Assembly: GCA_030141605.1 (NCBI GenBank)
Contig: JAQGDQ010000512.1
Span: forward strand, 1 to 64,000
Length of the DNA: 64,000 nucleotides
DNA from: Tubiluchus corallicola
Taxonomy: Eukaryota; Priapulida; Priapulimorpha; Priapulimorphida; Tubiluchidae
Direction of reading: 5' to 3'
Shown here one piece after another: positions 21,153-57,576 of this stretch (positions within the stretch are counted from its first letter, which is position 1; the number at the start of each line of letters is the position of its first letter). A program made the translations under genes and the position numbers. The notes under the pieces are model-generated. The model was given only the letters and a program-made list of their open reading frames with translations. It was not told the origin of the DNA and ran no database searches.

Positions 21153-21269
21153 CTGAAAAAAAGAAAAATTCGGAAAAAACTGGCAAAACAGTGCAGCACT
21201 CATGTTTTCAGTGACCAAGTAAAGCTCCATGGCATCTTTAACTGCATTGCTTTAGGCGTTTAACCTTTG

Positions 21270-21830
21270 GATATTTCAAGTTTGGGCAGTGGCGGCTCGT
21301 TTATGAGTACTGTGGACTGCAGCACCCCCTATTTTCATCAATATTATCAATAATATTCAATATAACGAATTTTTTTTCTTTAGTTCTTTCTTTATACTTG
21401 TACGGTCCAGAGCACATGAGGGTGGTACTGTTTGCTTCACAGCCCAGCACAGTGTGCTCATAGCTCAAGCAACTATTTGACTGTTGCGCGCATGCCTGAA
21501 ACCATACGCTTCACTTTAGGTGCTATCACTCACTCAGAGTGTGTTTTCAGTTGTCACGTGCTTAAAAGCCTGGAACAGGCACATTCTGGAACTGCGACAA
21601 TTTAGGCAATTCGTAAGCAAATAATATTTTTTGTTTACGATTTTTTTCAAGTTTATGTACAAATTTTTGTATGTTTGTTTATTTAAAATTACAATTACAA
21701 ATTGCAACATTAAACTAGCATATGTTTGTTTCGTTTTATACCGTATTAAAAGAATGGCTAAAAATTTCCTGAAGCAGCACCCCCAACAATTTCAGCTATG
21801 AGCTACCACAGAGTTCGCGAGTATATTGAT
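21270..21830. mobile_element. Possible hAT-like element (CAGTGGCGGCTCG end)
   Basis: A CAGTGGCGGCTCGTTTATGA start and a CAGCTATGAGCTACCAC end look like inverted termini, and GCAGCACCCCC occurs near both ends, but I cannot find a convincing target duplication. Confidence 0.4.
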
Positions 21831-21854
21831 GTTGGCAATGCATTGCTAAATTTG

Positions 21855-21957
21855 GCGGTGGTGGTCGGTGGTGGTGGTTATGGTGGTGGTGTTGGTGGTG
21901 GTGGTGCAGCAACAGCAGCAGCAGCAGTAGTAGTTGTAATAGTAGTAGTAGTAGTAT
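21855..21957. repeat. (TGG)n/(CAG)n/(TAG)n trinucleotide tract
   Basis: Successive GGTGG, CAGCAG and TAGTAG runs. Confidence 0.9.
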
Positions 21958-22149
21958 GTTTATTGACCAATTATTAAAGGAGTACCATTACAAATCAACA
22001 CTTGATTTGATAAGCAATTAATTAGCCTAACATATTACATAGTGTAAATTACTACTCTTTCCTTCAAAGGAAGACGGGAGTTTTCATATACTACCCCATT
22101 TTCAAGTCCGATACAGTATACATTTTAAGACATTTAGTACTGCAAAAGC

Positions 22150-22660
22150 TTTTCCGATAATTATGTAACAGATTAAAAACTTAATTAATGGCAGGCAAGC
22201 ACAACTATTTATGACATCACAAACTAACATGATTTTCAACAGAAAAAAATTTTCCACGGGCGTGTTGCACGTGCTTGCAAAAGCAAAAATTGAAGTACAG
22301 TGCAGCTGTAAGATATTCAGTGTGTCGTATTAAAACTAGGCAAATTTTACGATAAAAATTCAAATTGCAAATTTACCGCTGTGCTCACGCATGAGCTGTC
22401 GAACGTGTGTAGCTCATCACAATCTAACACATCTGAACGGAGAGGTACAGCCCCTGTTTTTTGTGCAATGCATTTCCAAAATGCAGGCGCTAGTGCCCAT
22501 CTAACTAGCAAATAGCAAAATGCATCTAACAGCGAAGAACTAGTGATGCAAACGTGAAATTGTGTTTTTCTCATCATAATTCTCTCACGTAAGTCATTTT
22601 TGAAAAAGTAACATGTTTCCTTTCAATATTTTAAAGAGTAGATTGTTTCCACCTACAGTC
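22150..22660 (-). repeat. Interspersed repeat RC, copy 1
   Basis: Reverse complement of sequence also at 28340-28830, 43057-43517 and (partly) 54182-54500: ACTAGTTCTTCGCTGTTA and GCATTTCGGAAGTGCATTGC are shared. Non-coding, class unknown. Confidence 0.7.
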
Positions 22661-22945
22661 CGGTTTTGCTTTAAGTACAAGATCAGTATTTAAGATAGCA
22701 GCATACAATCATATTTTAAAATCAATTTTAATATCGGTGCTATTAAACAAGTTGCCTAGGTTTTCAAACTTAAGACCGAGATTCCTATTAATTATTGTAA
22801 TCTCATTCTAAGATGTTCACTAATTTCTCATTCACAAAGAACAGGTTGCTCTGTATGTACACTTTCTCCACATTAGCATAGCGTATCTTGTCAGCTTACG
22901 TAGTCTATTTATCAAAATTTAAATATTAGCATGCTAAGGCAAAAT

Positions 22946-23417
22946 TACGGCCATATCACGTTGAAAACACCAGTTCTCGTCTGATCACCGAAGTTAAGCA
23001 ACGTAGAGCCTGGTTAGAACTTGGATGGGTGACCGACTAGGAATACCAGGTGCTGTAGACCGGAGGAGGTCAAGTGACCCAACGGCCATGTGTAGAGGAA
23101 TAAACCTTCCAAATCAGGAGTGGAGCCCCGAAGGTGGACCAATGCAGCATGCTCACTGACTCTGGCAGCTCTTGCAGCCAACCAGGTGTCAAACGTATCG
23201 CTCCGCTTTCCTTTGGACTACACCAGCGAGGAAGAGAGGGGGTTCCTGTTGTCTGAGAAACTCAGGATCTCCAAACACCTTGCCAGGCGTGCGCCCTGGA
23301 GACGTTCAAGGATCACACTGCTCAGCCTCAGTCGACGCTGCAGCTCCATCAATGTGACCAATAACTGACTCACTTGGCGCACACTCTATTGTCTTCCGAG
23401 GCAGAAGGATGCCAACA
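22946..23417 (+). mobile_element. 5S rRNA-headed SINE, copy 3 (full length)
   Basis: 22946-23060 is a complete 5S-like head (GATCACCGAAGTTAAGCAAC, GGATGGGTGACCG, GGTGCTGTAGAC), so the internal Pol III promoter layout is present. The tail to 23417 matches copies 1 and 2. AAGGCAA before the head and after the tail may be the target duplication. The head is too diverged in its middle to count as a functional 5S gene. Confidence 0.85.
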
Positions 23418-23592
23418 AGGCAAGTGTAAATATTTGAATTCGTGAAAGAATAGTACGTTCCCTTTCAATATTTTATGAGTACGATTCTTCTGAGCTATAG
23501 TTTAAAACTGAACCCAGTTTCCTTTTAATTTTTCTAGATGCATTACAACTCAACAATATTGTGTGTATTCAACCAATTTTAGCGATTATGAC

Positions 23593-23950
23593 CAGGCCCT
23601 ATGCAAACATACTGCTTCCTCTCTCCCTCTCTCTGTCTGTCTGTTTCTCTCTCGCGCTCTCTTCCCCCCTCTCTCTCTCTTTCTCTCTCCCCCCTCTCTC
23701 TCTCCCTCTCTCTCTCTCTCTTGCCGCATGCATGCCATTTGCCAGTATTGACAAGTATTAAGGACTGGTCTTGAGATTAAAGCAGTTTTTCTTTCAATTG
23801 TTCTTTCCTTTAACAACTGTATAACTCCATATTTTGTCTTCGGAAATGCTTCTCCTGCATTCTAGCAGTTCTACCCCCCAACCCCCCACCCCGAGGGCGC
23901 CTCACACGCCCCCACTTCCCCGGGCCTCGCTTAGGCTGAAATAGGCCCTC
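23593..23950 (+). mobile_element. hAT-like MITE, family H3, copy 2
   Basis: It ends in GGCTGAAATAGGCCCT like copy 1 and is flanked by a perfect 8-bp duplication ATTATGAC (23585-23592 and 23951-23958). The interior is a CT-rich expansion (23610-23725), a tract also present in shorter form in copy 3. Confidence 0.85.
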
Positions 23951-24073
23951 ATTATGACACTAGTTTTCAGCTACCAAGTGTACATAAAATTATGTGACCA
24001 GATGTAAATTATAAAAAACAACACAATTATCGTCAAAATAAGATACACTGCGTATTATTAATATATATTAAGG

Positions 24074-24312
24074 CTAGTTCTGAGACCAAACAAGAATGAC
24101 AGCAATACACGTTATTAAAACACACAATTGACTTCGCCTGGTATATAATTTGACTGCTCTTGCTACCAGGTCTTGTGGACAATGGGCAAAATCCATGGCA
24201 GTAATTTCACTTTCATTGTGCAACCGCCTTGGTTCGGCACAGTCAACTAAGCTTGATTTCCATTGCACAAGTTTTACCCACTTAAGACGGCAGTCACAGA
24301 TCAGCTTGTTAC
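24074..24312 (-). CDS. LRR gene A, exon 2 (LRRCT cap and hydrophobic tail)
   Basis: The minus-strand acceptor TTTCCTAG precedes GTAACAAG at 24312. With the phase-1 donor of exon 1 it gives G-NKLICDCRLKWVKL, QWKSSLVDC, EITAMDFAHCP, a basic linker and the hydrophobic tail LCVLITCIAVILVW, then SQN and a stop. Cys spacing CxC...C...C is that of an LRR C-terminal cap. The tail could be a GPI-anchor signal or a membrane segment; no good polar omega region is obvious. Exons 1 and 2 join to 843 bp (280 codons plus stop). Only this member is on the minus strand, the same strand as WDR6. Confidence 0.85.
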
Positions 24313-25295: not shown

Positions 25296-25296
25296 A

Positions 25297-25363
<67 letters not shown>

Positions 25364-25393: not shown

Positions 25394-25399
25394 TACATG

Positions 25400-25604: not shown

Positions 25605-26208
25605 CCGTGAAATGCAGATTTATCCCTGAAATTTGTTTGTGTGGAAATGTTAACGCTGGCATAGTCATTGTCTCGATAGCTGTGCCAGTGATAATAATGT
25701 CCTCCAAACACAAATTCCCAAAGAAATCGAAGTCCCCCGTTTCTAAGGCTGGACAGTTCTTGATATGAAAGGTGTGCATGCATGCATCTATAAGCTTAAA
25801 TGCATCTTTCTCGATCATTATCAACCCACTCAAGTCATCTAGCAGCAATTTGCGTCTGGGGAGGGCCGCAACCGCCGTACTGCTGATGTTTTCCAGGGTC
25901 TTCGAGTGTGCAATTGTTAAATATTCCATTTGTATTCCATCCAAGAACCCATCTGGCAGAAGTTTATCTTCGTAACCGAAGATCATGAGCTCGAGAATCT
26001 CACGTTTCGGCATTTTGGATGCTCCTCTCCTTGCGGTTTCACTCGAGTTAAAATTGCAAGTAATCTGGCACATTTCTGGCCTGTCGTAGTCTGATACACA
26101 CTCGCACAAGTGCACCACTTCCTGCATTTGCTCACAGTTGCACGAAGCTTTGCATCCGACCACTAACCAAAGTAGACCGATTCCTGCTGCTACGGTCGCC
26201 AAGCTCAT
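25605..26208 (-). CDS. LRR gene A, exon 1 (signal peptide, Cys cap, LRRs)
   Basis: ATG at 26208-26206 starts a hydrophobic signal MSLATVAAGIGLLWLVVG. A Cys-rich cap follows (CNCEQMQEVVHLCECV, CQITC) and then degenerate leucine-rich repeats with LxxLxI spacing. They end in the family block FHIKNCPALETGDFDF, IIITGTAIETMTMP. The donor ACG|GTAAGG falls after 25605 in phase 1, as in paralogues B-E. Only a few residues would follow unspliced before a stop. Among known proteins the layout recalls small secreted LRR proteins of invertebrates with LRRNT/LRRCT caps, but I do not recognise an orthologue. Role unknown; cell-surface or secreted recognition is inference. Confidence 0.85.
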
Positions 26209-29514: not shown

Positions 29515-31000
29515 TCAAATGAGCAGCTGTATTCCAGAACCAAAGAAGAACATTGGAGCACTAAAATCGGAATCAGAGACTAAGATGGGCAAGCCATTTA
29601 ATGAGATTACCAGAAACAACACCAGTAAGATTAGCATTAAACATTGGAGCACTAAAATCAGAATCAGAAGACTAAGATGGGTAGGACATTTAATGAGATT
29701 ACCAGAAACAACACCAGTAAGATTAGCATTAAACATTGGAGCACTAAAATCAGAATCAGAAGACTAAGATGGGTAGGACATTTAATGAGATTACCAGAAA
29801 CAACACCAGTAAGATTAGCATTAAACATTGGAGCACTAAAATCAGAATCAGAAGACTAAGATGGGTAGGACATTTAATGAGATTACCAGAAACAACACCA
29901 GTAAGATTAGCATTAAACATTGGAGCACTAAAATCAGAATCAGAAGACTAAGATGGGTAGGACATTTAATGAGATTACCAGAAACAACACCAGTAAGATT
30001 AGCATTAAACATTGGAGCACTAAAATCAGAATCAGAGACTAAGATGGGTAAGCCATTTAATGAGATTACCAGAAACAACACCAGTAAGATTAGCATTAAA
30101 CATTGGAGCACTAAAATCAGAATCAGAAGACTAAGATGGGTAGGACATTTAATGAGATTACCAGAAACAACACCAGTAAGATTAGCATTAAACATTGGAG
30201 CACTAAAATCAGAATCAGAGACTAAGATGGGTAAGCCATTTAATGAGATTACCAGAAACAACACTAGTAAGATTAGCGTTAAACATTGGAGCACTAAAAT
30301 CAGAATCAGAAGACTAAGATGGGTAGGACATATGAGATTGCCAGAAACAACACCAGTAAGATTAGCATTAAACATTGGAGCACTAAAATCAGAATCAGAG
30401 ACTAAGATGGGTAAGCCATTTAATGAGATTACCAGAAACAACACCAGTAAGATTAGCGTTAAACATTGGAGCACTAAAATCAGAATCAGAAGACTAAGAT
30501 GGGTAGGACATTTAATGAGATTACCAGAAACAACACTAGAAAGATTAGCAATAAACATTGGAGCACTAAAATCAGAATCACAAGACTAAGATGGGTAGGA
30601 CATTTAATGAGATTGCCCGAAACAACACCAGTAAGATTAGCAATAAACATTGGAGCACTAAAATCAGAATCAGAAGACTAAGATGGGTAGGACATTTAAT
30701 GAGATTGCCAGAAACAACACCAGTAAGATTAGCATTAAACATTGGAGCACTAAAATCAGAATCAGAAGACTAAGATGGGTAGGACATTTAATGAGATTAC
30801 CAGAAACAACATCAGTAAGATTAGCGTTAAACATTGGAGCACTAAAATCAGAATCAGAAGATTAAGATGGGTAGGACATTTAATGAGATTGCCAGAAACA
30901 ACACCAGTAAGATTAGCATTAATCGAGGCACTGTAATTCACTAAATGACCTCCAGATAAACCAAAAACAACTTGGATATCAATAATAAATAAAGATTAGC
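29515..31000 (+). repeat. 92-bp satellite (~15 copies) expanded inside a LINE fragment
   Basis: It starts with LINE-like coding EQLYSRTKEEHWSTKI. From about 29555 to 30925 a 92-bp unit repeats about 15 times, and it leaves with RLALIEAL and KPKTTW, the LINE continuation. Each unit encodes KIRIRRLRWVGHLMRLPETT. Because 92 is not a multiple of three, the frame rotates and only short open frames survive. The same protein block is seen in single copy at 6655-6955. It ends about 210 bases before the ATG of LRR gene B. Confidence 0.9.
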
Positions 31001-31173
31001 AACGGCTGGTAAACTTATCAATAGCATTACAGGAGTTGAAAATTTCGGCTGCGAACAGGAAACACTGAAGTGCTCTAATAAACAACGTAGGCTCTACATC
31101 AACTGTACAATAGATGTTTAGAGCAACAGAAGAAGAAGAAGAAGAAGGCGCGATGTCCTAGCAACAGACATTG

Positions 31174-31187
31174 GTTACCATAGTAAC
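31174..31187 (+). promoter_or_regulatory. X-box-like palindrome before LRR gene B
   Basis: GTTACCATAGTAAC fits the RFX X-box pattern GTHNYY-AT-RRNAAC exactly and lies 27 bases before the ATG. The surrounding GCAACAGACATTGGTTACCA is conserved before B and D and recognisable before C and E. RFX control is an inference. Confidence 0.5.
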
Positions 31188-31214
31188 ATCACAAAGCACG
31201 ACAAAGCATTCATC

Positions 31215-31848
31215 ATGGCAGAACTTAAAAAGTGGAGTCAGTTGTTAAATATGGCAACAATTAGTCTGTTATGGGTAGCTGTAGGATGCAGAGAACACTG
31301 GTGCAACTGTGACAACATGAAAAATGGTGAACTAATGACAGAAAACCTCTGCACATGCATCAAAGACCCGGGAAATATAAACAAATGCCAGCTGACCTGC
31401 AATGCAATGGATGCCAAGGCTGCCATGAAAATGGACGGCCTCATCCCAACGGATGGAGTCGATCAGCTCACAATTAGTGACTACACGGAAGAGGAGTTGC
31501 CAAGTAAATATCTACGCGGAACCATCATTAGGAAACTAATTATCAAAGATTCTGAAAAACTCAAGTCTATCGGAGAGACAACATTCAGCATCAAGGATGT
31601 GCAGCAGATAATTCTGGACAGCTTACAGGAGTTAAGCAAGATCGACAGCAGAGCATTTCACCTCATGACCACACTGCACGTGTTCACGATTAAGAACTGC
31701 AAGGCTTTAACGACAGGAGACCTTGATTTTAGTGGGAGTCCGCTTCTATCAGAAATTTCCATTACCGGCACGGCAATAGAAAAGATGAAGATGCCAATGC
31801 TCAAAGCTGGACTAGATCAGACAAAGCATGTGAAATTAGAATTGAGAG
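31215..31848 (+). CDS. LRR gene B, exon 1 (signal peptide, Cys cap, LRRs)
   Basis: The ATG in TTCATCATGGC opens MAELKKWSQLLN followed by hydrophobic MATISLLWVAVG, a signal peptide. The cap has CNCDN, CTCIKD and CQLTC. LRR-like lines follow: VDQLTISDY, IIRKLIIKDSEKLKSIGETT, VQQIILDSLQELSKIDSRAF, LHVFTIKNCKALTTGDLDFS, and ISITGTAIEKMKMP. Donor GAG|GTAAGC, phase 1. With exon 2 the mRNA frame is 858 bp (285 residues). Nearest relative is D (same start KKWSQLLN, same introns and flanks), a recent duplicate. Function not known; a secreted or surface-anchored recognition protein is plausible. Confidence 0.9.
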
Positions 31849-31888
31849 GTAAGCAAGTCTGTTAACACTTCTGTACCAAGTTTACACT

Positions 31889-32577
31889 TTAAAGGACAAG
31901 AAAGGGGGTACCTGACGTAGGTTTCAGAAAAATCGCTTTAAAAAAGTATATTACTTTATAGTAGTTTTATGCATATATCTTACTCGCACTGAAAAGAATT
32001 TAGTTTGTTTTCATTTTAAATCTCCCGCAATACTGTTCCGAAGTCGCCATTGCATGATGTCATGTAGCAAACGTAAATGAAGGGAAGAAAAGGCAATGTT
32101 AAATTATGTCTCAAAAGACTTTCCGTGCAAATCTATATTACTTAGATTTTCGGTTACCTACTAGAAAGACTTATGTAACTAGAAAAGAAAATTATTAATT
32201 ATTTAAAATGTTTTCATCAATTGGTAAAATGTCGCTGACTCCCCCTCCAGGGTGCACCACTCACTAACCAGAAAACGCATTTTTAATCTTACTGACAAGA
32301 TACAGTAATTTGAAATTTTACTTACTTAGTGACGTGTGCATTGCGAATGCTCCGATTTTTTTTCAAACTTTAGAAAATGTTATCTAAACTTGTTTCAAAT
32401 AACCTGTCCTGAAAATGGCTGCGTCTAACGGTCATCGCGGGAGCTTAAATTTAGATGTTTTATACAGCGTGACTGCCGATTGAAGTCATGTGTGCAAAAA
32501 GACAGTATGTAAGTGGTGTAAAATTTCAAGACGAATTTTTAAGCTTTATGTTTATGAAGGGTTTTCATGTGCTCTAA
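31889..32577 (+). mobile_element. T2 TTAA MITE, copy 3 (intron of B)
   Basis: TTAAAGGACAAGAAAG at the left, a decayed TTTTCATGTGCTCTAA end at the right. It is at the same intronic place as the copy in gene D, so it predates the duplication. Confidence 0.75.
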
Positions 32578-33225
32578 CTTATCCCAAATGAATCTTTTTT
32601 AGTTTTTTTATCCCAAATCTAAATTGCAGTGCCGGATTAAAACATGGGCTCTATGGGCTGCAGTCTCTACAAGCTGAGGGGTTTCCAGAAATTAAATGAA
32701 ATTAATTAAATTCACTGTGAAAAGTTACTTCAGAATGAAAGTAGAACTATGCTGATTTATCTCTTTCAAAGGGACTTAATTAATTAATATATTATATAAT
32801 ACATTGGAACTGTTTCTTTGCTCATTATTCCAAGTCACAGCTACTACCACCCCAGTAATTAATTTATTGCAATTTGTATGCACTATATTTAATATTTCAA
32901 AAACTTATTTTAATTTTGTAAATATCAGAATATCTCTTCTCTTTTTGTTGTTTTTGACTTGCACCCATCTATGTGGACCTAATGTTGGCATTATGTTGTA
33001 GAAGTTGAACATAAACTGATTTCAAGAATCCAACATTCACGCTTTTGATAATTGTCACTGGGGGCCTAATATTGGCATTATGTTGTAGCAGTTGAATAAA
33101 CTGATTTCAAGAATCCAACATTCACGCTTTTGATAATTGTCGCTGGGGGCCTAATGTTGACATTATGCTGTAGAAGTTGAATAAACTGACTTATTAAAAA
33201 ATAATTTGGGACTGAAAGGGTTGAA
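32578..33225. repeat. Intron of B: ~80-bp tandem units and T1 end fragment
   Basis: Shared with 46459-47112 in gene D. 33030-33190 holds tandem copies of GAATCCAACATTCACGCTTT plus GGGGGCCTAATGTTG. 33200-33222 is an isolated right end of a T1 MITE (TTTGGGACTGAAAGGGTT). No exon seen. Confidence 0.7.
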
Positions 33226-33310
33226 ATGATAGCTTACAAAGTCCGAGAACATTGAAACGGCGCAAGTAAAGTTCAACTAGATGTTCACTTGTTTTGTTTT
33301 TGCTTTGCAG

Positions 33311-33534
33311 AAAACAAGCTCGTTTGTGACTGTGAGATGCAGTGGGTGAAAACCCTTCCGTGGAAGGAATCGAAAATCGACTGCGAAAAACCCAAGAAAC
33401 TGTCTGGGAAAAGTGAAATTACAGCCAAATATTTTTACCGCCATTGCTCAAGTTCTACGTCAGTCAGAATGCATATTTTCTTGATTTCATCCTGCATTCT
33501 GATTATAACATTTTCAGTCAGGTTATCCAGTTAA
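33311..33534 (+). CDS. LRR gene B, exon 2 (LRRCT cap and hydrophobic tail)
   Basis: Acceptor TGCTTTGCAG ends at 33310; with the phase-1 donor it codes E-NKLVCDCEMQWVKTLPW, KIDCEKPKKLSG, EITAKYF and HCSSSTS. A strongly hydrophobic end MHIFLISSCILIITFSVRLSS then runs to the stop at 33532. The Cys pattern is CxC, C, C. SSSTS before a C-terminal hydrophobic run fits a GPI-attachment signal. Confidence 0.88.
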
Positions 33535-33560
33535 CTGAAACAAGTAATACTGACAGCCTC

Positions 33561-33566
33561 AATAAA
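33561..33566 (+). terminator. Poly(A) signal, LRR gene B
   Basis: AATAAA 27 bases after the stop codon, identical in gene D. Confidence 0.6.
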
Positions 33567-34060
33567 ACAATTGGTGTCATTGTGAATTCATTTTAAAACA
33601 ACAACTTGTCAACCTATTGAGAAAGAACTATCGTACACAATTTATTACCTCATTTTTGCCAAATAAAGTGCTACTTTGACGTGCACTTGTAACTAAGCAA
33701 CTGTAGAAAAAAATAAACAAAAGTATAGTTGTAATAAAACTATTCATACATCATTTTGCTTATTATTTCAATTTCAATTTTATTTCAGACATAAAGGTGT
33801 TCACATAGCTAGCTGTACACAGTAAGCGATAAAAGATAAACGAGAGTTAGGGGAGAGTGCGCTATAGCGCGCCCCCTAGGGTTCGAAGTGTTTTTACCTA
33901 GTCGGCTGCATAAATGCGTATTCACAGTATATCACTTGACAAAACGTACTTTAAAATTTGCTTGCTATCAATTTCAGGCTAATTTAATTGTAAAATTTTA
34001 AATTATTTGATCAAAAGTAATTTTGGTCAAAAGGGGCACTTCGGGAAACATTGTTCCTAT
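33567..34060. other. 3' flank of gene B, duplicated after gene D
   Basis: No gene. Contains GGGGAGAGTGCGCTATAGCG, shared with the sequence after gene D; the two differ by a LINE insertion after D. Confidence 0.6.
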
Positions 34061-34980
34061 AGCGCACACCCTGCGTTCCCACAGCGCCCACAACAATAGG
34101 TAAAATGTTCCTATAATGCCCACTGCAACAGGTAAAATGTTCCTAATGCCCACTGCAACAGTAAAATGTTCCTTAATGCCCACACAAAGGTAAAATGTTC
34201 TTAATGCCCACTCAACAGGAAAATGTTCCTAAGCCCACCAAAGAAAATGTTCCTAAATGCCCACTGCAACAGGTAAAATGTTCCTATAATGCCCACTGCA
34301 ACAGGTAAAATGTTCCTGTAATGCCCACTGCAACAGGTAAAATGTTCCTATAACGCCCATTGCAACAGGTAAAATGTTCCTACAACGCCCACAGCAACAG
34401 GTAAAATGTTCCTGTAATGCCCACTGTGACAGGTAAAATGTTCCTATAATGCCCACTGCAACAGGTAAAATTTTCTTATAATGACCACTGCAACAGGTAA
34501 AATGTTCCTATAATGCTCATTGCAACAGGTAAAATGTTCCTATAATGCCCACAGCAATAGGTAGAAAGTTCCTATAATGCTCATTGCAACAGGTAAAATG
34601 TTCCTGTAATGCCCACTGCAACAGGTAAAATGTTCCTATAACGCCCATTGCAACTGGTGAAATGTTCCTATAATGCCCACTGCAACAGGTAAAATGTTGC
34701 TATAATGCTCATTGCAACAGGTAAAATGTTCCTATAATACCCATTGCAACAGGTAAAATGATCCTATAATGCCCATTGCAACAGGTAAAATGTTCATATA
34801 ATACCCACTCGCAACAGGTAAAATGTTCATATAATACCCACTCGCAACAGGTAAAATGTTCATATAATACCCACTCGCAACAGGTAAAATGTTCATATAA
34901 TACCCACTCGCAACAGGTAAAATGTTCATATAATACCCACTCGCAACAGGTAAAATGTTCATATAATGCCCACTGCTCTG
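34061..34980. repeat. 32/33-bp minisatellite S32, array 1
   Basis: Unit GCAACAGGTAAAATGTTCCT plus ATAATGCCCACT (32 bp). At 34776-34976 a 33-bp variant (ATACCCACTCGCAAC form) is homogenised, giving open frames such as QQVKCSYNTHS that are artefacts. Every unit contains CAGGTAAAAT, a splice-donor-like string. Confidence 0.95.
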
Positions 34981-37700: not shown

Positions 37701-38346
37701 ATGGCTGGCTACTGTGGACAGCTAGTTGAAAATCGGTGCCTAGCTCTGATCATTCCAGTAACTATTCTACTCTCGCTAGCTGTACAGTGCAGGGGAGAAT
37801 GCAACTGTGATGAAATAAACCAGGGGGAACTAATGACGCAAATGCTCTGTTTGTGTATTAGAGACATGAAAGATGCAAAACTCTGCCAGATGATCTGCAC
37901 TCCCTCAAATGCGGAGGCTGCCATCACGGTGCAGCGACTCCTCCCGAGGCAAGGCATCACGCAGCTCACGATCGCAGGTTACGCGGACACAGAACTTCCG
38001 GATAAATTTCTGGCGGGAATAACCACGCATCAACTGGTTATTGCGGCAGCAGACAAAATTCAGAATATCGGAAAGACGGCATTCGGCATTGTCAACGTGG
38101 AGGAAATGATAGTGGATAACCTGGGCGGACTGAAGACGATCCACATCCGTGCATTCCAGCGCATGGAGACACTGGCCAGTCTTATGATCAGAAACTGTCA
38201 GGCTTTAACGACGGGAGACCTGGACCTCTCCGGGAGTCCAAATCTGATAAGAATTTCAATCACTAGTACAGCAATGGAGACAATGAGAATGCCAAAACTG
38301 TACGCTAACTCAAGACAGGCAATACAGATGGAACTGGAATTGAGAG
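37701..38346 (+). CDS. LRR gene C, exon 1 (signal peptide, Cys cap, LRRs)
   Basis: I chose the second ATG (37701) because it opens the conserved frame: MAGYCGQLVENRCLALIIPV, then a hydrophobic TILLSLAVQC, CNCDEINQG, CLCIRDMKDAKLCQMIC. The LRR block has ITQLTIAGY, HQLVIAAADKIQNIGKTAF, EEMIVDNLGGLKTIHIRAFQ, LMIRNCQALTTGDLDLSGSP and ISITSTAMETMRMP. Donor GAG|GTAAAA after 38346, phase 1, weaker than in B, D and E. With exon 2 at 41196 the frame is 873 bp (290 residues). More diverged than B/D. Confidence 0.88.
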
Positions 38347-40609: not shown

Positions 40610-40860
40610 GTTGTCGTACTAGTGTGATGGTATTTCATATCTGGTTAATATTAGTGATTTTAATTTTGTTTCATGTGCTGATAGGGACTTGATTTGTTTA
40701 ACCTGTAATGGTAGAGAATTCCAAAGTAGAATTGCTTGTTTGATTACAGAGTTTGTTCCATAGTGGGTATTTGTCCTAATTTGTTTTAGATTGTTTGTTC
40801 TGGAATTAACGATAGGATTTGGAAAAAAGGCAAATCTGTTATGTTTTGAATATTTCATTC
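40610..40860 (-). mobile_element. LINE ORF2 C-terminal fragment
   Basis: Minus-strand frame contains RTNNLKQIRTNTHYGTNSV, IKQAILLWNSLPLQVK and ETKLKSLIL, the LWNSLP end of a reverse transcriptase ORF. It lies directly before the decoy exon copies of gene C. Confidence 0.65.
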
Positions 40861-41128
40861 CAGCATTTCAAGAACGTATTTGCCGTTCACTTGTTTGTTG
40901 TTGTTTCCTAGGTAACAAGCTGATTTGTGACTGTGCAGCAAACACAGTTGTCTATTTTCTTTGTTGGAATTTGTCGACAGTATGTTTTGAATATTTCATT
41001 TCAGCGTTTCGAGAATGTATTTGCTGTTCACTTGTTTGCTGTTGTTTCCTAGGTAACAATCTGATTTGTGACTGTGCAGCAAACACAGTTGTCGATTTTC
41101 TTTGTTGGAATTTGTCGACAGTATGTTT
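40845..41128 (+). repeat. Two tandem decoy copies of the exon-2 acceptor of gene C
   Basis: A ~142-bp unit repeats before the true exon 2. Each copy has the polypyrimidine tract, CCTAG acceptor (exon would start at 40912 or 41053) and the first 27 bases of exon 2 (GNKLICDCA or GNNLICDCA), followed by foreign sequence. Reading through from either gives Cys-rich frames that stop at 41195 without the LRRCT cap. Each copy also has a possible donor CGACA|GTATGT, making a 68-bp cassette that would shift the frame if included. Confidence 0.8.
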
Positions 41129-41195
41129 TCTGAATGTTTCATTTCAGCGTTTCAAGAACGTATTTGCCGTTCACTTGTTTGTTGTTGTTTCCTAG

Positions 41196-41422
41196 GTAAC
41201 AAGCTGATTTGTGACTGTGCAGTTAAGTGGGTAAAGTTGGAGCTGTGGAAACTATCCAAAATTGACTGTGAAGAACCAAAAAGGCTGCACGGTGAAAACG
41301 AAATTACAGCTGAAGATTTCGCCCATTGCCCTAAACCTGCCAGGGCCACAGCAACCACACAAAATGAAGCCAGTTTTTTAATAATATGTATCTCTGCCAC
41401 ACTCGTTTGGTTTCAGAACTAA
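41196..41422 (+). CDS. LRR gene C, exon 2 (LRRCT cap and hydrophobic tail)
   Basis: The third CCTAG acceptor (41191-41195) is the only one followed by the complete cap: G-NKLICDCAVKWVKLEL, SKIDCEEPKRLHGE, EITAEDFAHCP. Then a TATTQNEA linker, hydrophobic FLIICISATLVW, FQN and stop at 41420. The tail matches gene A's (…LVWSQN) rather than B/D's. Together with exon 1: 290 residues. Confidence 0.88.
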
Positions 41423-43517: not shown

Positions 43518-44460
43518 CCGAGATTGCCAGAAACAACACCAGTAAGATTAGCATTAAACATTGAAGCACTAAAATCAGAATCAGAGACTAAGATGGGTAG
43601 GACATTTAAAGAGATTGCCCGAAACAACATCAGTAAGATTAGCAATAAACATTGGAGCACTAAAATCAGTATCAGAAGACTGAGATGGGTAGGACATTTA
43701 AAGAGATTGCCCGAAACAACATCAGTAAGATTAGCGTTAAACATTGGAGCACTAAAATCAGCATCAGAAGACTGAGATGGGTAAGCCATTTAATGAGATT
43801 ACCAGAAACAACACCAGTAAGATTAGCATTAAACATTGGAGCACTAAAATCAGCATCAGAAGACTGAGATGGGTAGGACATTTAATGAGATTACCAGAAA
43901 CAACACTAGTAAGATTAGCATTAAACATTGGAGCACTAAAATCAGAATCAGAAGACTAAGATGGGTAGGAAATTTAATGAGATTACCAGAAACAACACTA
44001 GTAAGATTAGCAATAAACATTGGAGCACTAAAATCAGCATCAGAAGACTAAGATGGGTAGGACATTTAAAGAGATTACCAGAAACAACACTAGTAAGATG
44101 AGCATTAAACATTGAAGCACTAAAATCAGAATCAGAAGACTAAGATGGGTAGGACATTTAATGAGATTGCCCGAAACAACATCAGTAAGATTAGCAATAA
44201 ACATTGGAGCACTAAAATCAGAATCAGAAGACTAAGATGGGTAGGACATTTAATGAGATTGCCCGAAACAACATCAGTAAGGTTAGCGTTAAACATTGGA
44301 GCACTAAAATCAGAACCAGAAGACTAAGATGGGTAAGCCATTTAATGAGATTACCAGAAACAACACCAGTAAGATTAGCATTAATCGAGGCACTGTAATT
44401 TACTAAACGACCTCCAGGCAAAACCAAAAACAACTTGGATATCAAGAATTAATAAAGATT
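43518..44460 (+). repeat. 92-bp satellite, second array (~9-10 copies) with LINE end
   Basis: Same unit as at 29555, with CATCAG/CACTAG variants; leaves with the LINE-like RLALIEAL and ACAACTTGGATATCAA at 44385-44445. Ends about 215 bases before the ATG of LRR gene D. Confidence 0.9.
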
Positions 44461-44633
44461 ATGAACGGCTGGCAAAGTTATCAATAGCATTACAGGATTT
44501 GAAAATTTCGGCTGCAGACGGGAAACAGTGAAGTGGTCTAATAAACGACATAGGCTCTACATCAACTGTACAATAGATGTTTAGAGCAACAGAAGAAGAA
44601 GAAGAAGGCGCAATGTCCTAGCAACAGACATTG

Positions 44634-44647
44634 GTTACCATAGTAAC
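44634..44647 (+). promoter_or_regulatory. X-box-like palindrome before LRR gene D
   Basis: GTTACCATAGTAAC, identical to the gene B site and at the same distance from the ATG (27 bases). Confidence 0.5.
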
Positions 44648-44674
44648 ATAACAAAGCCTGACACAGCATTCATC

Positions 44675-45305
44675 ATGGCTGCACTTAAAAAGTGGAGTCA
44701 GTTGTTAAACATAGCAACAATTAATCTGTTATGGGTAGCTGTAGGATGCAGAGGATGGTGCATCTGTGAAAAGATAAAAAAAGGTGAACTAACGACAGAA
44801 AACCTCTGCACATGCATCGATGACCCGGAAGATCGGAACCAATGCCAGCTGACCTGCAACGCAATGGACGCCAAGGGGGCCGCGAAAACGGACAGCCTCA
44901 TCCCATCGTATGGAGTCGATCAGCTCACAATTAGCAACTACACGGGAGAGGAGCTGCCAGATAAATATCTACAGGGAACCATCATGAGGAAACTGATTAT
45001 CACAGATTCTGAAAAACTCAAGTCCATCGGAGAGACGACATTCGGCATCATAGAAGTGGAGGAGATAATTCTGAACAGCTTACATGAGTTAAGCAAGATC
45101 GACAAAGGAGCATTTCAGCTCATGACCATACTGGAGGTGTTCACGATTAGGAACTGCAAGGCTTTAACGACAGGAGATTTTGATTTTAGCGAGACTCCGT
45201 TTCTATCAAATATTACCATTACCGGCACGGCAATAGAAAAGATGAAGATGCCAGTACTCAACGGAGGACTAGATCAGGCAAGCCATATGCACTTATTTAT
45301 GAGAG
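44675..45305 (+). CDS. LRR gene D, exon 1 (signal peptide, Cys cap, LRRs)
   Basis: MAALKKWSQLLNIATINLLW opens a signal peptide, then CICEKIKKG, CTCIDD and CQLTC. LRR lines are VDQLTISNYTGEELPDKYL, RKLIITDSEKLKSIGETTF, EEIILNSLHELSKIDKGAF, LEVFTIRNCKALTTGDFDFS and ITITGTAIEKMKMP. Donor GAG|GTAAGC, phase 1. Joined to exon 2 it gives 861 bp, 286 residues. Paralogue of B with many amino-acid changes in the cap and mid-LRR surface positions. Confidence 0.9.
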
Positions 45306-45318
45306 GTAAGCAAGTCTG

Positions 45319-45752
45319 TTAACCCTTTCATACCCGTTGTATCCCGTAGGATACGAGAATATTTTCTGCCTTTAAAATTAATAAAATTTTAAAACTGGCA
45401 GTTATTTGATCTGTTAATAGTTATTTTGATAACAATAAACCAAAAATGGTGATAAAATGGCAAACTAGAAAATCTACATAGCATAAAAAACTGTGCAAGG
45501 TACAGTACTTTAGGTACGACTTTGTACAGATCAGCATAGCATGCATACTAAATACCTTGAATACTTTAAAAAATGATGAGCAGTCGCAAAATGAAGCACA
45601 TTTTTTGCTTTTGTTGTGTTTTTAAAAAAGTCGGACTTTGTTTTTTTGCATATGACAAAGAATGTTGTGTATCCCACAGGATACATTGGGAACAAAAGTT
45701 CCAAGCCAAAATGTTTTCCTATTAAAAAATAATTTGGGACTGAAAGGGTTAA
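45319..45752 (-). mobile_element. T1 TTAA MITE, copy 6, inserted next to gene D donor
   Basis: TTAACCCTTTCATACCCG ... GACTGAAAGGGTTAA, flanked by TTAA on both sides. The same place in gene B reads GTCTGTTAACACTTCTGTACC without an insert, so B is the empty site. It begins 13 bases after the last base of exon 1. Confidence 0.92.
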
Positions 45753-45775
45753 TACTTCTGTACCAAGTTTACGCT

Positions 45776-46458
45776 TTAAAGGAGAAGAAACGGGCACCTG
45801 AAGTAGGTTTCAGAAATATCGCTTTAAAAATTATATTACTTTATAGTAGTTTTATGCGTATATCTTACTCGCACTGAAAGGAATTTTAGTTTGTTTTCAT
45901 TTTAAATCTCCCGCAATACTGTTCCAAAGTCGCCATTACATGACGTCATGTACCAAACGTATATCAAGGGAAGAAAACGCAATGTTAAATTATGTCTCAA
46001 AAGACTTTCCATGCAAATCTATATTACTTACATTTTCGCTTACCTACTAGAAAGACTTATGTAACTAGAAAAGAAAATTATTAATTATTTAAAATATTTT
46101 CATCAATTGGTAAAATGTCGCTGATTCCCCCTCCAGGGTGCGCCACTCACTAACCAAAAACGCATTTTTAATCTTATTGACAAGATACAGTAATTTTAAA
46201 TTTTACTTACTTAGTGACGTGTGTGTTGCGAATGCTCTGATTATTTTTTCAAACTTTACTCAATGTTATTTAAACTTGTTCCAAAAACCTGTCCTGAAAA
46301 TGGCTGCGTCCAACGGTCATCGCGGGAGCTTAAATTTACATGTTTTATACAGCGTGACTGCCGATTGAAGGCAAGCACGCAAAAAGGCAGTATGTAAGCG
46401 ATATAAAATTTCAAAACGAATTTGTCAAGCTTTATGTTTATGAAGGGTTTTCATGTGC
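45776..46458 (+). mobile_element. T2 TTAA MITE, copy 5 (intron of D)
   Basis: TTAAAGGAGAAGAAAC start, same internal markers as the copy in gene B, decayed right end. Confidence 0.75.
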
Positions 46459-47112
46459 TCTAACTTATCCCAAATGAATCTTTTTTAGTTTTTTTATCCC
46501 AAATCTAAATTGCAGTGCCGGATTAAAACATGGGCTCTATGGGCTGCAGTCTCTGCAAGCTGAGGGGTTTCCAGAAATTAAGTGAAATTAATTAAATTTA
46601 CTGTGAAAAGTTACTTCAGAATGAAAGTAGAACTATGCTGATTTATCTCTTTAAAAGGGACTTAATTAATTAATATATTATATAATACATTGGAACTGTT
46701 TCTTTGCTCATTATTCCAAGTCACAGCTACTACCACCCCAGTAATTAATTTATTGCAATTTGTATGCACTATATTTAATATTTCAAAAAATTATTTTAAT
46801 TTTGTAAATATCAGAATATCTCTTCTCTTTTTGTTGTTTTTGACTTGCACCCATCTATGTGGGCCTCAAGTTGGCATCATGCTGTAGAAGTTGAATATAA
46901 ACTGATTTCCAGAATCCAACATTCTCGCTTTTGATAATTGTCGCTGGGGGCCTAATGTTGGCATAATGTTGTAGAAGTTGAATAAACTGATTTCAAGAAT
47001 CCAACATTCACACTTTTGATAATCGTCGCTGGGGGCCTAATGTTGACATTATGCTGTAGAAGTTGAATAAACTGACTTATTAAAAAAATAATTTGGGACT
47101 GAAAGGGTTGAA
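46459..47112. repeat. Intron of D: ~80-bp tandem units and T1 end fragment
   Basis: Counterpart of 32578-33225 in gene B with the same isolated T1 right end (TTTGGGACTGAAAGGGTT). No exon seen. Confidence 0.7.
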
Positions 47113-47197
47113 ATGATAGCTTACAAAGTCGAAAAACATTGAGTTGGCGCAAGTAAAGTTCAACTAGATGTTCACTTGTTTTGTTTTTGTTTCGCAG

Positions 47198-47427
47198 AAA
47201 ACAAGTTCGTTTGTGAATGTGATATGCAGTGGGTGAAAACCGGTGAATATAATCGGTGGAATACATCGACTATCGACTGCGAAAAACCCAAGAAACTGGA
47301 TTTTATTACAATACAATATTTTTGGTTGCTGATTGGTTGCACAGGTTCTACGCCGGTCGGGATGAATATTTTCCTGATTTCATCCTGCATTTTGATTATA
47401 ACATTTTCAGTCAGGTTATCCAGTTAA
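47198..47427 (+). CDS. LRR gene D, exon 2 (LRRCT cap and hydrophobic tail)
   Basis: Acceptor GTTTCGCAG ends at 47197. E-NKFVCECDMQWVKTGEY, STIDCEKPKKLDF and then FLISSCILIITFSVRLSS to the stop at 47425. Compared with B, the last cap segment is rewritten (EITAKYFYRHC in B; ITIQYFWLLIGC here) and CDC has become CEC, yet the four cap cysteines and hydrophobic tail are kept. This argues for a working gene under loose or diversifying constraint rather than a pseudogene. Confidence 0.85.
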
Positions 47428-47453
47428 CTGAAACAAGTAATACTGACAGCCTC

Positions 47454-47459
47454 AATAAA
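47454..47459 (+). terminator. Poly(A) signal, LRR gene D
   Basis: AATAAA in the same position after the stop as in gene B. Confidence 0.6.
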
Positions 47460-47682
47460 ACAATTGGTGTCATTGTGAATTCATTTTAAAACAACAACTT
47501 GTCAACCTATTGAGAAAGAACTATCGTACACAATTTATTACCTCATTTTTGTCAAATGAAAGTTGTACTTTGACGTGCACTTGTAACTAAGCAACTGTAG
47601 AAAAAAATAAACAAAAGTATAGTTGTAATAAAACTATTCATACATCATTTTGCTTATTATTTCAATTTCAATTTTATTTAGT

Positions 47683-48367
47683 TTAGTTTAGTTTAAACGT
47701 AATTTATTTAGGATTGGATCAGACAGTTTGAACAACATGATTTAGGATCCTCACCACAACAGAGTTTATACACTATTTACAAGAACATTTACAGTAAGAA
47801 TTGACTATAACTACACAAGCTGACAAGTTTTACTACAAGATTACATTAGACATTATTAGAAAATGATGGTTAGGAAATATTAATGTACGAATATTTAAGA
47901 CTGATGCATTTCATATCAGATAGAAACTACTGGAAGCGTTTAGTACGTAATATAAAGTCATGTATACATTGGAATATTTTACAGTTAGTAACATAGTTAA
48001 ATTCATCTTTTCCGAACAATAACAACTTCAACAGATCATTAGTTCCTAAGGCAGCTATATTAAGGTTTTCAGGCAGAAGTATTTCATTTAATTTATCAAA
48101 CATAACAACCCTAGTTTGTTGATACAATGGGCAGTGCAACAAAAAGTGTTCAACAGACTCAAATCGAAATCCACAGTTACAATTCGGCAATGTTGGATGA
48201 CCGTTATTATCTTTACAGCCTTTAGAGAAAAGGTCATAGTTTAGCTGAGCAAATCCGATTCTCATGTGCGTATGATGCACTGAAACTGGAGGTTTACCAA
48301 ATGAAAAATATTTCTTACGCAACAAAAACTTAAAAGAGATTTGAGCTCTTGTTTGAATCGTGAATAG
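47683..48367 (-). mobile_element. 5'-truncated LINE with (CTAAA)n tail
   Basis: The minus-strand frame (48325-47927) carries HTHMRIGFAQLNYDLFSKGC, CNCGFRFESVEHFLLHCPLY and QQTRVVMFDKLNEILLPE, the Cys-His finger at the end of non-LTR ORF2. It ends in TAAACTAAACTAAACTAAAT. TTCAATTTTATTT occurs on both sides and only once at the matching site after gene B (about 33775), so this is an insertion younger than the B/D duplication. Confidence 0.88.
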
Positions 48368-48604
48368 TGTTTCAATTTTATTTCAGACCTAAAGGTGTCC
48401 ACATAGCTAGCTGTACACAGTAAGCGATAAAAGATAAACGAGAGTTAGGGGAGAGTGCACTATAGCGCACCCTCTAGGGTTTGAAGTGTTTTTTACCTAG
48501 TCGGCTGCATAAATGCGTATTCACAGTATATCACTTGATGAAACGTACTTTAAAATTTGCTTGCTATCAATTTCAGGCTAATTTAATTGTAAAATTTTAA
48601 ATTA

Positions 48605-50068
48605 TTTGATCAATTTAGGTAAAATGTTCCTGTAATGCCCACTGTGACAGGTAAAATGTTCCTATAACGCTCGCTGCAACAGGTAAAATGTTCCTATAAT
48701 GCACACTGCAACAGGTAAAATGTTCCTATAATGCTCGCTGCAACAGGTAAAATATTCCTATAACGCCCACTGCAACAGGTAAAATGTTCCTATAATGCCC
48801 ACTGCAACAGGTAAAATGTTCCTGCAATGCCCACTACAACAGGTAAAATGTTCCTGCAATGCCCACTACAACAGGTAAAATGTTCCTGTAATGCCCACCG
48901 CAACAGGTAAAATGTTCCTGTAATGCCCACTACAACAGGTAAAATGTTCCTGTAATGCGAACTGCAACAGGTAAAATGTTCCTGTAATGCTCACTACAAC
49001 AGGTAAAATGTTCCTGTAATGCCCACTGCAACACGTAAAATGTTCCTGTAATGCCCACTATAACAGGTAAAATGTTCCTGTAATGCCCACTACAACAGGT
49101 AAAATGTTCCTATAACGCTCGCTGCAACAGGTAAAATGTTCCTATAATGCACACTGCAACAGGTAAAATGTTCCTATAATGCCCACTGCAACAGGTAAAA
49201 TGTTCCTGTAATGCCCACTGCAACAGGTAAAATGTTCCTGTAATGCCCACTACAACAGGTAAAATGTTCCTGTAATGCCCACTACAACAGGTAAAATGTT
49301 CCTGTAATGCGAACTGCAACAGGTAAAATGTTCCTGTAATGCTCACTACAACAGGTAAAATGTTCCTGTAATGCCCACTGCAACACGTAAAATGTTCCTG
49401 TAATGCCCACTATAACAGGTAAAAAATGTTCCTGTAATGCCCACTACAACAGGTAAAATGTTCCTATAATGCACACTGCAACAGGTAAAATGTTCCTATA
49501 ATGCCCACTGCAACAGGTAAAATGTTCCTGTAATGCCCACTGCAACAGGTAAAATGTTCCTGTAATGCCCACTACAACAGGTAAAATGTTCCTGTAATGC
49601 CCACTACAACAGGTAAAATGTTCCTGTAATGCGAACTGCAACAGGTAAAATGTTCCTGTAATGCTCACTACAACAGGTAAAATGTTCCTGTAATGCCCAC
49701 TACAACAGGTAAAATGTTCCTGTAATGCCCACTACAACAGGTAAAATGTTCCTGTAATGCCCACTGCAACAGGTAAAATGTTCCTATGATGCCCACTACA
49801 ACAGGTAAAATGTTCCTGTAATGCCCACTACAACAGGTAAAATGTTCCTGTAATGCCCACTGCAACAGGTAAAATGTTCCTATAATGCCCACTACAACAG
49901 GTAAAATGTTCCTGTAATGCCCACCGCAACAGGTAAAATGTTCCTGTAATGCCCACTACAACAGGTAAAATGTTCCTATAATGCCCACTGCAACAGGTAA
50001 AATGTTCCTGTAATGCGAACTGCAACAGGTAAAATGTTGCTATAATGCCCACTGCAACAGGTAAAATC
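48605..50068. repeat. 32-bp minisatellite S32, array 2 (~45 copies)
   Basis: Same unit as at 34061-34980. Larger blocks of several units are themselves repeated (a GCGAACTGC variant recurs with a ~335-bp period), which shows amplification in multi-unit segments. The FTCCSGHYRNILPV-type frames are artefacts. Confidence 0.95.
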
Positions 50069-52168: not shown

Positions 52169-52841
52169 ATGGCAGCACTGTTAGTGTTTGCTACAGACGG
52201 GGGGCTACCACACCTAGTTATAAAGTGGAGCCAGATACTAACCATAGCAGCAGCTAGTGTATTATGGCTAGCAGTAGAATGTAGAGTAAAAAACTGCGAC
52301 TGCAGTGTGATAGAGAAAGGAGGGCTAACCACAAAAAAGCTCTGCATATGCCTCGCAGATCAAGAAAATGTGGAGACATGCCAGTTAATCTGCAGTCCAT
52401 TGAAAGAGGGGCCTGCTAAGGCAATGGGGGATCTCATTCCATCACAAGGAGTCAGACAACTCACAATCACTCGTTACGATGACAAACAATTTCCGGATCA
52501 ATTTCTGTCGAAAATAAAAGTCCAGCAACTGACCATCTCACAGTCAAGCACCCTGGAGTTTATCGGTGAGACGACGTTTGGCATCACCAACGTGGAAGAA
52601 TTGATGCTGGACGGGTTGGAGACATTGATGAAGATCGACAGCGAGACGTTTGCTCGCATGACAACGCTGCGGACGCTCGCGATTACGGACTGCAAGGCAC
52701 TGAAAACCGGAGACTTCGACTTTCCTCAGAGCGATAAACTAATGAAAATTTCCATTACCGGGACAGCGATAACGACAATGAGAATGCCAAGGCTCAACCG
52801 AGGACTCGATCAGGCAGCAAACATAGATCTAGAAGTGAGAG
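52169..52841 (+). CDS. LRR gene E, exon 1 (signal peptide, Cys cap, LRRs)
   Basis: The ATG at 52169 is the only in-frame Met before the signal. The N-terminus is longer than in B/D (MAALLVFATDGGLPHLVIKW) before hydrophobic ILTIAAASVLWLAVEC. Cap: CDCSVIEKG, CICLAD, CQLIC. LRR lines: VRQLTITRY, VQQLTISQSSTLEFIGETTF, EELMLDGLETLMKIDSETFA, LRTLAITDCKALKTGDFDF and ISITGTAITTMRMP. Donor GAG|GTAAGC, phase 1; joined frame 894 bp, 297 residues. Confidence 0.9.
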
Positions 52842-55257: not shown

Positions 55258-55478
55258 GAAACAAGCTGATCTGTGACTGCACCGTGCAGTGGGTGAAGAG
55301 AGTCGAGTGGAAAGAATCGAAAGTCGACTGCGAGGATCCCAAGCGAGTGTTTGGCATAAACGAAATTACGACCAAGGATTTCGAACACTGCCCGGCATTT
55401 ACAATTGCTGCTGCAGCAAGAATGTACAGTATGTTAAATGTGTTTTGCATTTTGGCAACATGTTTTACTGGTAGATAA
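55258..55478 (+). CDS. LRR gene E, exon 2 (LRRCT cap and hydrophobic tail)
   Basis: Acceptor TTTCTTTCGCAG ends at 55257. G-NKLICDCTVQWVKRVEW, KVDCEDPKRVFG, EITTKDFEHCP, then AFTIAAAARMYSMLNVFC, ILATCFTGR and stop at 55476. Same four-Cys cap; the tail is less hydrophobic and ends in a basic residue, so the membrane anchoring suggested for the paralogues is less certain here. Confidence 0.88.
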
Positions 55479-55678
55479 TGGTAGACATCATAACTCCTCA
55501 TCAATTTATGTTTACATTAAATACTAACCTGTTTGTAAGGAACTATTGTCTAATCTTATCAATCATTAAATCATTTAATCCTAGTCACATTAGTATGTGT
55601 TTTTTGTACGTTTGCGCATATGTATGAAAAAATGCGATGAAAAAAATATAAAATGATATAGTAAATTATAGTTTAACT

Positions 55679-56053
55679 CAGTGGTTCCCAAAGTAGGGGT
55701 AAATTACCCCTTGCGGGTAATTTGTTTTTTTTGGGGGGGGGGTAACGGGCACCCCTCTGAAAATTTTTAAAACTTTGCTCGGAATGCATTTTACGTAGTT
55801 TTCTTCTTGAAGAGACTGCCTGCTCACTCAGTAATGAGCAGGTTCAGTAATTGTAATTCTTGTTTTGGCAACAGTACAACAACAACACCTGGAAATTTAT
55901 TTATGTCACGAGCAAACATAAATAATTTTGCTTGCTTGTGGCATATACGTGTGTTTACTTTTTGAGTTGGAGAAGTAGTACTAGGTGGAGGATAATGTAC
56001 ACGACCGGGTTTCCCGATTTGGGTAACGGTCCGAGAAAGTTTGGGAACCACTG
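55679..56053 (+). mobile_element. hAT-like MITE, family H5
   Basis: Ends CAGTGGTTCCCAAAG / TTTGGGAACCACTG and a perfect 8-bp duplication GTTTAACT (55671-55678 and 56054-56061). The CAGTGGTTCCCAAA end is common to many animal hAT elements. Confidence 0.92.
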
Positions 56054-56061
56054 GTTTAACT

Positions 56062-56360
56062 AATTGTAACAAGATATAAATAAACAGTCGTTTACCAGGC
56101 TGGAACTGTAAGACATGGAATAAAGTAATAAGTGAAGATACAAGATGTGTCTGAACAATGTAGAAGAGTTTATAACATATTTAATAGATACTTTAGAACG
56201 CACTATTATAACCGTGTCTTGAAGGTTATGACATGGCGGAGACTGCTCTCCTGTTATGTATGCGCATATTAAATAGTTATTAAGATATTATTACAATAAG
56301 CTTCATTGCATTTCCATAAAATTGCTCTGATTAAGCTCAAATGACATCAAAATGACACAC
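56062..56360. other. No gene seen
   Basis: AT-rich spacer after the hAT MITE. Confidence 0.4.
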
Positions 56361-56880
56361 AAACTGACTACTTCATTAACTACTTCATTGACTACCTCAC
56401 TGACTATTCAATGACCACTTCATTGACTACTTCAATGACTACTTCATTGACTACTTCATTGACCACTTCATTGACTACCTCACTGACTACTCAATGACCA
56501 CTTCATTGACTATTTCAATGACTACTTCATTGACCACTTCATTGACTACTTCATTGACTACTTCATTCTGCTTCATTGACTACCTCACTGACTACTTCAT
56601 TGACTACCTCACTGAATACATTAATGACTACTTCATTGACCACTTCACTGACTACTTCATTGAATACCTCACTGACTACTTCATTGACTACCTCACTGAC
56701 TACTTCATTGACTACTTCATTGAATACCTCACTGACTACTTCATTGACTACTTCATTGAATACCTCACTGACTACTTCATTGACTACTTTATTGAGCACT
56801 TCTTTGACTACTTCATTGACTACATCATTTACTACCTCATTTACTACCTCATTGACTATGTACATTTTCATAGACGAATG
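56361..56880. repeat. 12-bp based repeat (TTCATTGACTAC)n
   Basis: TTCATTGACTAC and CTCACTGACTAC units alternate irregularly; frames TSLTTSLT, DYFIDYLT and NEVVNEVV are artefacts of the 12-bp period. Confidence 0.95.
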
Positions 56881-57054
56881 ACTGATTGACTAATTGGAGA
56901 ACCAAATCCTCAGCAATGCTTAAACATGGCTTCATTTACTTGAGATGTTACGAAAGGATATAAATCACTGTTGTCGTTAATTAATCTCGTATCTCTTAAT
57001 TAATCAATGTTATTATTTCTTAACATTATAACATTAATGTTATTATTTCATGGT

Positions 57055-57275
57055 TCCCAAACTAGACAACTGCAAAACAGACAAACTTGATAATCACAAA
57101 GGCTACATCATTTACAAAAGACATTCAACAAGAAGCCGTGACTACCAAACTAGACAACTGCAAAACAGACAAACTTGATAATCACAAAGGCTACATCGTT
57201 GACAAAAGACATTCAACAAAAAGCCGTGACTACCAAACTTGACAACTGCAAAACAGACAAACTTGAAAGGCTGTT
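57055..57275. repeat. Two to three copies of a ~115-bp unit
   Basis: ACTAGACAACTGCAAAACAG and GATAATCACAAAGGCTACAT recur about 114 bases apart, with a third partial copy. Confidence 0.85.
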
Positions 57276-57576
57276 ACAAGCTAAATTTTTCCCCTCGCCT
57301 GTAACACAGTCGTATCCGTCAGTGCTTGTATCTCCAGTAAATCAGCAAATGTTCCGACTAGATCAACCAATTTGTTATACAGATAAATAATAGGCATTGA
57401 TAATATATTGATAATAATACGATTTGACACATTTGTCATACGGGATTTCGGTTATTTCGGACGTCAGACAACCGCGAATTACCCCAGTTGCGAGCTACCC
57501 AACATGAATAGGTCACGACAATAGAGGGTTTACTAATGAACGTGAAATATCAGCCCAGCTCTATAATTTCACTCAC

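Follow-up and report, generated by a model that had tools for sequence, protein, structure and literature searches.

Can a gene family multiply within a single intron of a conserved gene while the host and its guests both remain functional? The question is raised by a 64,000-nucleotide stretch of the genome of the priapulid Tubiluchus corallicola (hereafter the window; positions 1-64000 of the 157,097-base contig JAQGDQ010000512.1, denoted C440), which holds a WDR6-like gene and, wholly between two of its coding exons, the coding sequences of five intact two-exon genes of a leucine-rich repeat (LRR) family, W1 to W5. WDR6 is a partner of a tRNA 2′-O-methyltransferase. We read the locus, with a probability of roughly 0.86, as a real nested gene cluster, with an intact WDR6 frame and five LRR genes in one intron, which would be a tolerated niche where these genes have promoters of their own. 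On this reading, the locus would be a clean case of gene-family growth that enlarged an intron of a conserved gene, with one of the duplications still readable in the DNA.

The WDR6-like host gene and its large intron

The WDR6-like gene was rebuilt on the minus strand from ten exons in the window, which run from position 63553 to the stop codon at 14261 in one frame with a sole, terminal stop; the other two frames of the joined exons contain 28 and 31 stops. Exons 57739-57577 and 21152-21008 are consecutive and joined in phase 0, exactly at the coordinates given in an earlier note on this DNA. Their respective acceptors are TTTGCAG and TTTTTTTCAG, and their donors are GTGAGT and GTAATG. Yeast TRM734 (6jp6), named in its record as a non-catalytic tRNA methyltransferase subunit, aligns with the protein by phmmer (E 7e-17, query residues 154-343) without a gap at the 57577/21152 junction, and the similarity extends along the C-terminal WD region, which is also recognized by Pfam (WD40, E 7.5e-11). 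The intron between these two exons (21153-57576, minus strand) comprises 36,424 bases; the remaining eight introns of the window model measure 326-2724 bases. No WDR6-like exon was found within the large intron in a search with a human WDR6 sequence: the best candidate for a missing exon reached E 3.5 when the full-length query was used, and a junction piece reached E 0.055 through a stop codon, so that both were rejected.

The assembly that was searched comprises 343.5 Mb in 2344 contigs. The queries were four of the ten exons in the window, one pair from either side of the large intron. The search returned their own four pieces on C440 and a single chance match (E 3.1), and neither a second WDR6 locus nor the second set of 3′ exons that the earlier note had raised as a counter-case was found with these queries. 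Because the four exons matched C440 alone, bar the chance match, WDR6 is apparently single copy in the assembly.

Support for the individual exons, all on the minus strand, is of several kinds. Exons 62583-62712 and 59763-59858 come from the frame and splice model, as does 63362-63553 (...CGGGHRSW...), which was also matched by tblastn with the human protein. The exon at 58066-58582 (GGRAQ..., an aspartate run, ...AAGCSDGKI), the exons bordering the large intron on its 5′ side (57577-57739, phase 0 out) and 3′ side (21008-21152, phase 0 in), and the exon at 19499-19630 are jointly supported by the model, the genome search and the TRM734 alignment. The exon at 18006-18100 (...TASIDQRVTLWQV...) is supported by the model and the TRM734 alignment, and those at 15845-15912 (...QVADISSIDVW...) and 14261-14336, the last exon with the stop codon, by a motif as well as by the reading frame and splice sites. 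Further upstream on C440, WDR6-like pieces follow in order to ~87.6 kb with gaps of ~1.1-5.3 kb (tblastn with the same human query), and the gene probably spans more than 70 kb. Positions 58133-58157, within exon 58066-58582, are a CAT microsatellite that encodes a run of eight aspartates.

Five LRR genes within the intron

W1 is on the minus strand, in the same sense as WDR6 (exon 1, 25605-26208; exon 2, 24074-24312), and the other four genes are on the plus strand, antisense to the host: W2 (31215-31848 and 33311-33534), W3 (37701-38346 and 41196-41422), W4 (44675-45305 and 47198-47427) and W5 (52169-52841 and 55258-55478). These gene models bear out the earlier note with respect to both the orientations and the placement of all five genes in a single intron of ~36 kb. 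Each gene has a GT-AG intron in phase 1. All LRR tblastn matches in C440:1-102000 at E <= 0.05 fall within the large WDR6 intron.

The first exon encodes a signal-peptide-like start (identified by eye), eight invariant cysteines, six of which are clustered directly after this start, and degenerate LRRs. In the second exon, a cysteine block that resembles LRRCT is followed by a hydrophobic tail; a CxC..W...C...P pattern, as in LRRCT, was seen by eye in all five second exons, with no match to the Pfam LRRCT model in the two proteins scanned. Because the most hydrophobic stretch of the tail stops 0-7 residues from the C-terminal end, the tail is probably a glycosylphosphatidylinositol (GPI) signal. 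When a profile built from all five first exons was compared with solved chains, it matched LRRC15 (E 9.5e-4) and LRRTM (E 0.0047). When two of the five proteins were scanned against Pfam, one gave an LRR_5 match below the cut-off (E 1.6e-4) and the other gave no match to any LRR model with an E-value under 0.05. By these features, the products of W1-W5 look like short LRR proteins that are secreted or displayed at the cell surface. The proteins also look fast-changing, which would suit a putative role in recognition.

At W3, the 5′ end of exon 2 and its acceptor are repeated ~2.7 times (141-bp unit, 40840-41222), which yields three candidate acceptors in tandem; the full second exon is reached from the last one only.

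Growth of the cluster by duplication

The genome search with the LRR family gave 383 candidate matches, of which 150, spread over many contigs, were scored. Five of the scored matches lie on C440 and correspond to W1-W5; the best one by E-value outside the cluster is 36% identical, and no near-copy of the cluster was found among the 150. In a tree of 28 rows (W1-W5 plus the 25 best loci from elsewhere, minus two identical rows), W1-W5 group against the 23 sampled relatives with support of 90/80. The group recurs in 88% of 200 bootstrap trees and takes one change on the tree.

Within the intron, W2 and W4 belong to a duplicated block, the pieces of which are 86-93% identical over ~5 kb. The W2 copy (29549-34974, plus strand) consists of a 92-bp minisatellite, the gene and a 32-bp minisatellite; the W4 copy occupies 43520-49573 on the same strand, and the intron of W4 is ~0.4 kb longer than that of W2. 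Identity is 90.7% between 30062-31870 and 43520-45327, 92.8% between 31861-33785 and 45748-47679, and 86% in the adjoining minisatellites. For all other pairs, synonymous divergence (dS; Nei-Gojobori) is at least 1.1 or saturated. The two older pairs tested show maximum likelihood (ML) ratios of nonsynonymous to synonymous divergence (omega) of 0.45 (W2-W5) and 0.36 (W3-W5), and the older copies are therefore constrained genes rather than debris. The cluster thus grew in place, as the earlier note proposed, by a block duplication in the case of W2 and W4, and presumably also by older duplications, to which the grouping of the five genes points.

The 92-bp minisatellite (29549-30922 and 43520-44384) reads ...RLRWVGHLMRLPETTPVRLAL..., which resembles the tail of a long interspersed nuclear element (LINE) reverse transcriptase; a similar tail is present at 6569-6955.

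The two copies of the block (compared over 30923-33785 and 44385-47680) diverged unevenly. Differences were found at 83 of 631 sites in exon 1 and 35 of 215 in exon 2 (13-16%) versus 72 of 1458 in the intron, 3 of 251 in the 3′ flank and 23 of 289 in the 5′ flank (1-8%; Fisher p 2e-15). The exonic differences are distributed nearly evenly over the codon positions (45, 33 and 45), and omega is 1.08 by the Nei-Gojobori method and 1.46 by ML (1.44 in exon 1, 1.00 in exon 2). Simple positive selection was rejected as an explanation given that the ML value is not significantly greater than 1 (twice the log-likelihood difference is 1.97 overall). Synonymous divergence (0.125 by ML, 0.153 by Nei-Gojobori) exceeds that of the intron (0.05), and therefore conversion of the non-coding parts or exon exchange is also needed. 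We read this pattern as the likely signature of exons that diversify or are relaxed, within non-coding sequence that has been homogenised between the copies; an exchange of exons with a copy outside the sample is another possible source. The cause of the faster divergence of the exons becomes a testable question.

Alternatives to a functional nest

If the cluster is a real nest, an ancestral LRR copy would have entered the WDR6 intron, which local duplication and repeat arrays would then have swelled; the LRR genes would run from their own promoters, and WDR6 would be spliced across the cluster. Host and guest genes most likely both remain functional in such a tolerated niche, and the putative effect of the nested genes on WDR6 would most likely be weak. 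Several observations weigh against this interpretation. The genome-wide search covered only four of the ten WDR6 window exons; the large intron is rich in minisatellites and other repeats, where assemblies err; the support of 90/80 for the W1-W5 clade falls below the star threshold of treekit, and W1 is on a long branch in the tree. Furthermore, LRR-family matches on another contig, C786, are mirror-imaged about the contig centre (e.g., 12250 on the minus strand and 68634 on the plus strand), which suggests an assembly palindrome, so that artefacts may occur in the assembly. The repeats and the mirror images are also what speaks for a misassembly in which the LRR segment was falsely inserted between two WDR6 exons. 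Such an error, however, requires two false joins in one intron and is very unlikely, because WDR6, apparently single copy, has its two parts on the same strand and in the correct order on either side of the cluster, and the window contains no N (one run of five N lies outside it on C440, at 77093-77097). The lack of any near-copy of the cluster among the 150 scored matches, the next best being 36% identical, argues in the same direction. It is barely credible that WDR6 is broken, with transcripts that stop short in the large intron, leaving the 3′ exons as relics: apart from the size of the intron, nothing favours this possibility, and all five 3′ exons retain their frame and splice sites to the stop codon, with the similarity to TRM734 covering the first three.

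A different possibility is that the nest is real and regulated, such that antisense LRR transcription lowers or times the output of WDR6, or WDR6 transcription shapes the expression of the LRR genes. This would fit the antisense orientation of four of the five genes and the ability of nested genes to disturb host transcripts through intron retention, exonization and cryptic polyadenylation (PMC3192792). However, one of the LRR genes is in the sense orientation, expression of the TipE cluster nested in CG18675 shows no significant correlation with that of its host gene (PMC3240667), and nesting is currently considered to be evolutionarily neutral (PMC3786989). Accordingly, we regard regulation as rather improbable and favour a functional nest with little consequence for its host.

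Known nested clusters

Clusters of related genes within introns have been described in several animals. ECM2, ASPN, OMD and OGN, which we take to be LRR proteins, provide one comparison. All four are nested in CENPP (PMC3933685), and as in the WDR6 cluster, several genes of the LRR superfamily share a single host and are encoded on the strand opposite to it; the host and the LRR proteins, however, are different ones, from vertebrates, and in the WDR6 cluster, unlike that of CENPP, one of the five genes is in the sense orientation and the DNA still bears the trace of one duplication. The same source counts 19 old nested structures that were lost in frog or chicken, 12 of which contain LRR genes (PMC3933685). 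In insects, a cluster of GMC oxidoreductase genes resides in the second intron of Flo-2; in Drosophila melanogaster, the cluster measures 80.9 kb and the intron more than 83.2 kb (PMC1891103). Here too, a tandemly duplicated family fills a very large intron, and the host is oriented opposite to almost all of the GMC genes, but these encode enzymes rather than LRR proteins, and the nest is conserved in four insects, whereas the WDR6 nest was read in one species. The final intron of CG18675 houses the TipE cluster (PMC3240667), which likewise consists of several related genes in a single host intron; it differs in that the products are subunits of sodium channels, one of the genes is considered a retrogene, and TipE and its host overlap in their terminal exons. 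LRRTM genes in alpha-catenin introns (PMC3933685) and 2mit in tim2 (PMC3786989) are, similar to the WDR6 cluster, LRR surface-protein genes antisense within the intron of an unrelated host, but each of these hosts contains a single nested LRR gene, and the LRR proteins are longer.

In a literature search of limited scope, no report of nested genes in a WDR6 intron and none of lineage-specific nested gene families was found, nor did any cluster more similar than those above come up. The WDR6 nest is a known type of arrangement, with precedents in CENPP, Flo-2 and CG18675, in a host for which we found no report. The earlier note overstated the case in calling the arrangement unusual, given that tandem families in introns, LRR genes included, are documented (PMC3240667, PMC1891103, PMC3933685).

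A second nest and other loci of the family

On contig C545, first exons of the LRR family are present on the minus strand at 219445-219783 and 223577-224104, with a second exon within 218080-218376 on the same strand. They are flanked by plus-strand exons encoding a CARD domain (212.8-214.7 kb) and by coiled-coil exons from 230.1 kb onward. The joined CARD exons match the Pfam CARD model with E 2.5e-16 (a PDB search with the first of them gave no significant match, the best being RAIDD at E 0.12), and further matches over the cut-off on the plus strand are to PDZ (243917-244057 and 248214-248384; 33.0 and 31.8 bits) and guanylate-kinase-like domains (253858-254082; 28.3 bits). Thus, CARD, coiled coil, PDZ and guanylate-kinase-like domains follow each other on one strand (212789-254082), which is the order in which these domains occur in DLG5. 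In the whole assembly, the CARD and coiled-coil pieces have three matches, all on C545. Since the phase is 1 at the end of the second CARD exon but 0 at the start of the coiled-coil frame, one or more connecting exons, or a different splice site, must be unseen on C545. The LRR genes of C545 are antisense within the body of a DLG5-like gene, presumably in one of its introns. A coiled-coil piece showed weak similarity to Takusan (E 0.0099), which is below the cut-off and not the best match of that piece. With two nests at hand, it becomes testable whether such families prefer introns and whether the hosts pay a cost.

The surroundings of six family loci among the 150 scored matches were read by eye (flanks of ~3-10 kb). 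Two loci are nested (C440 and C545), two show no sign of nesting (C2239 and C2262), and two are undecided (C1817, where the contig ends nearby, and C676); with so few loci and such short flanks, two of six is no estimate of a rate. It is conceivable, although doubtful, that members of the LRR family lodge time and again, for the most part antisense, inside introns of conserved genes (to date WDR6 and a DLG5-like gene), where gene conversion would homogenise the non-coding parts while selection drives the exons apart, such that introns would serve as protected nurseries for diversifying recognition genes. The genes next to the two loci without signs of nesting look like DZF-type in one case and like EMC7 and ankyrin in the other.

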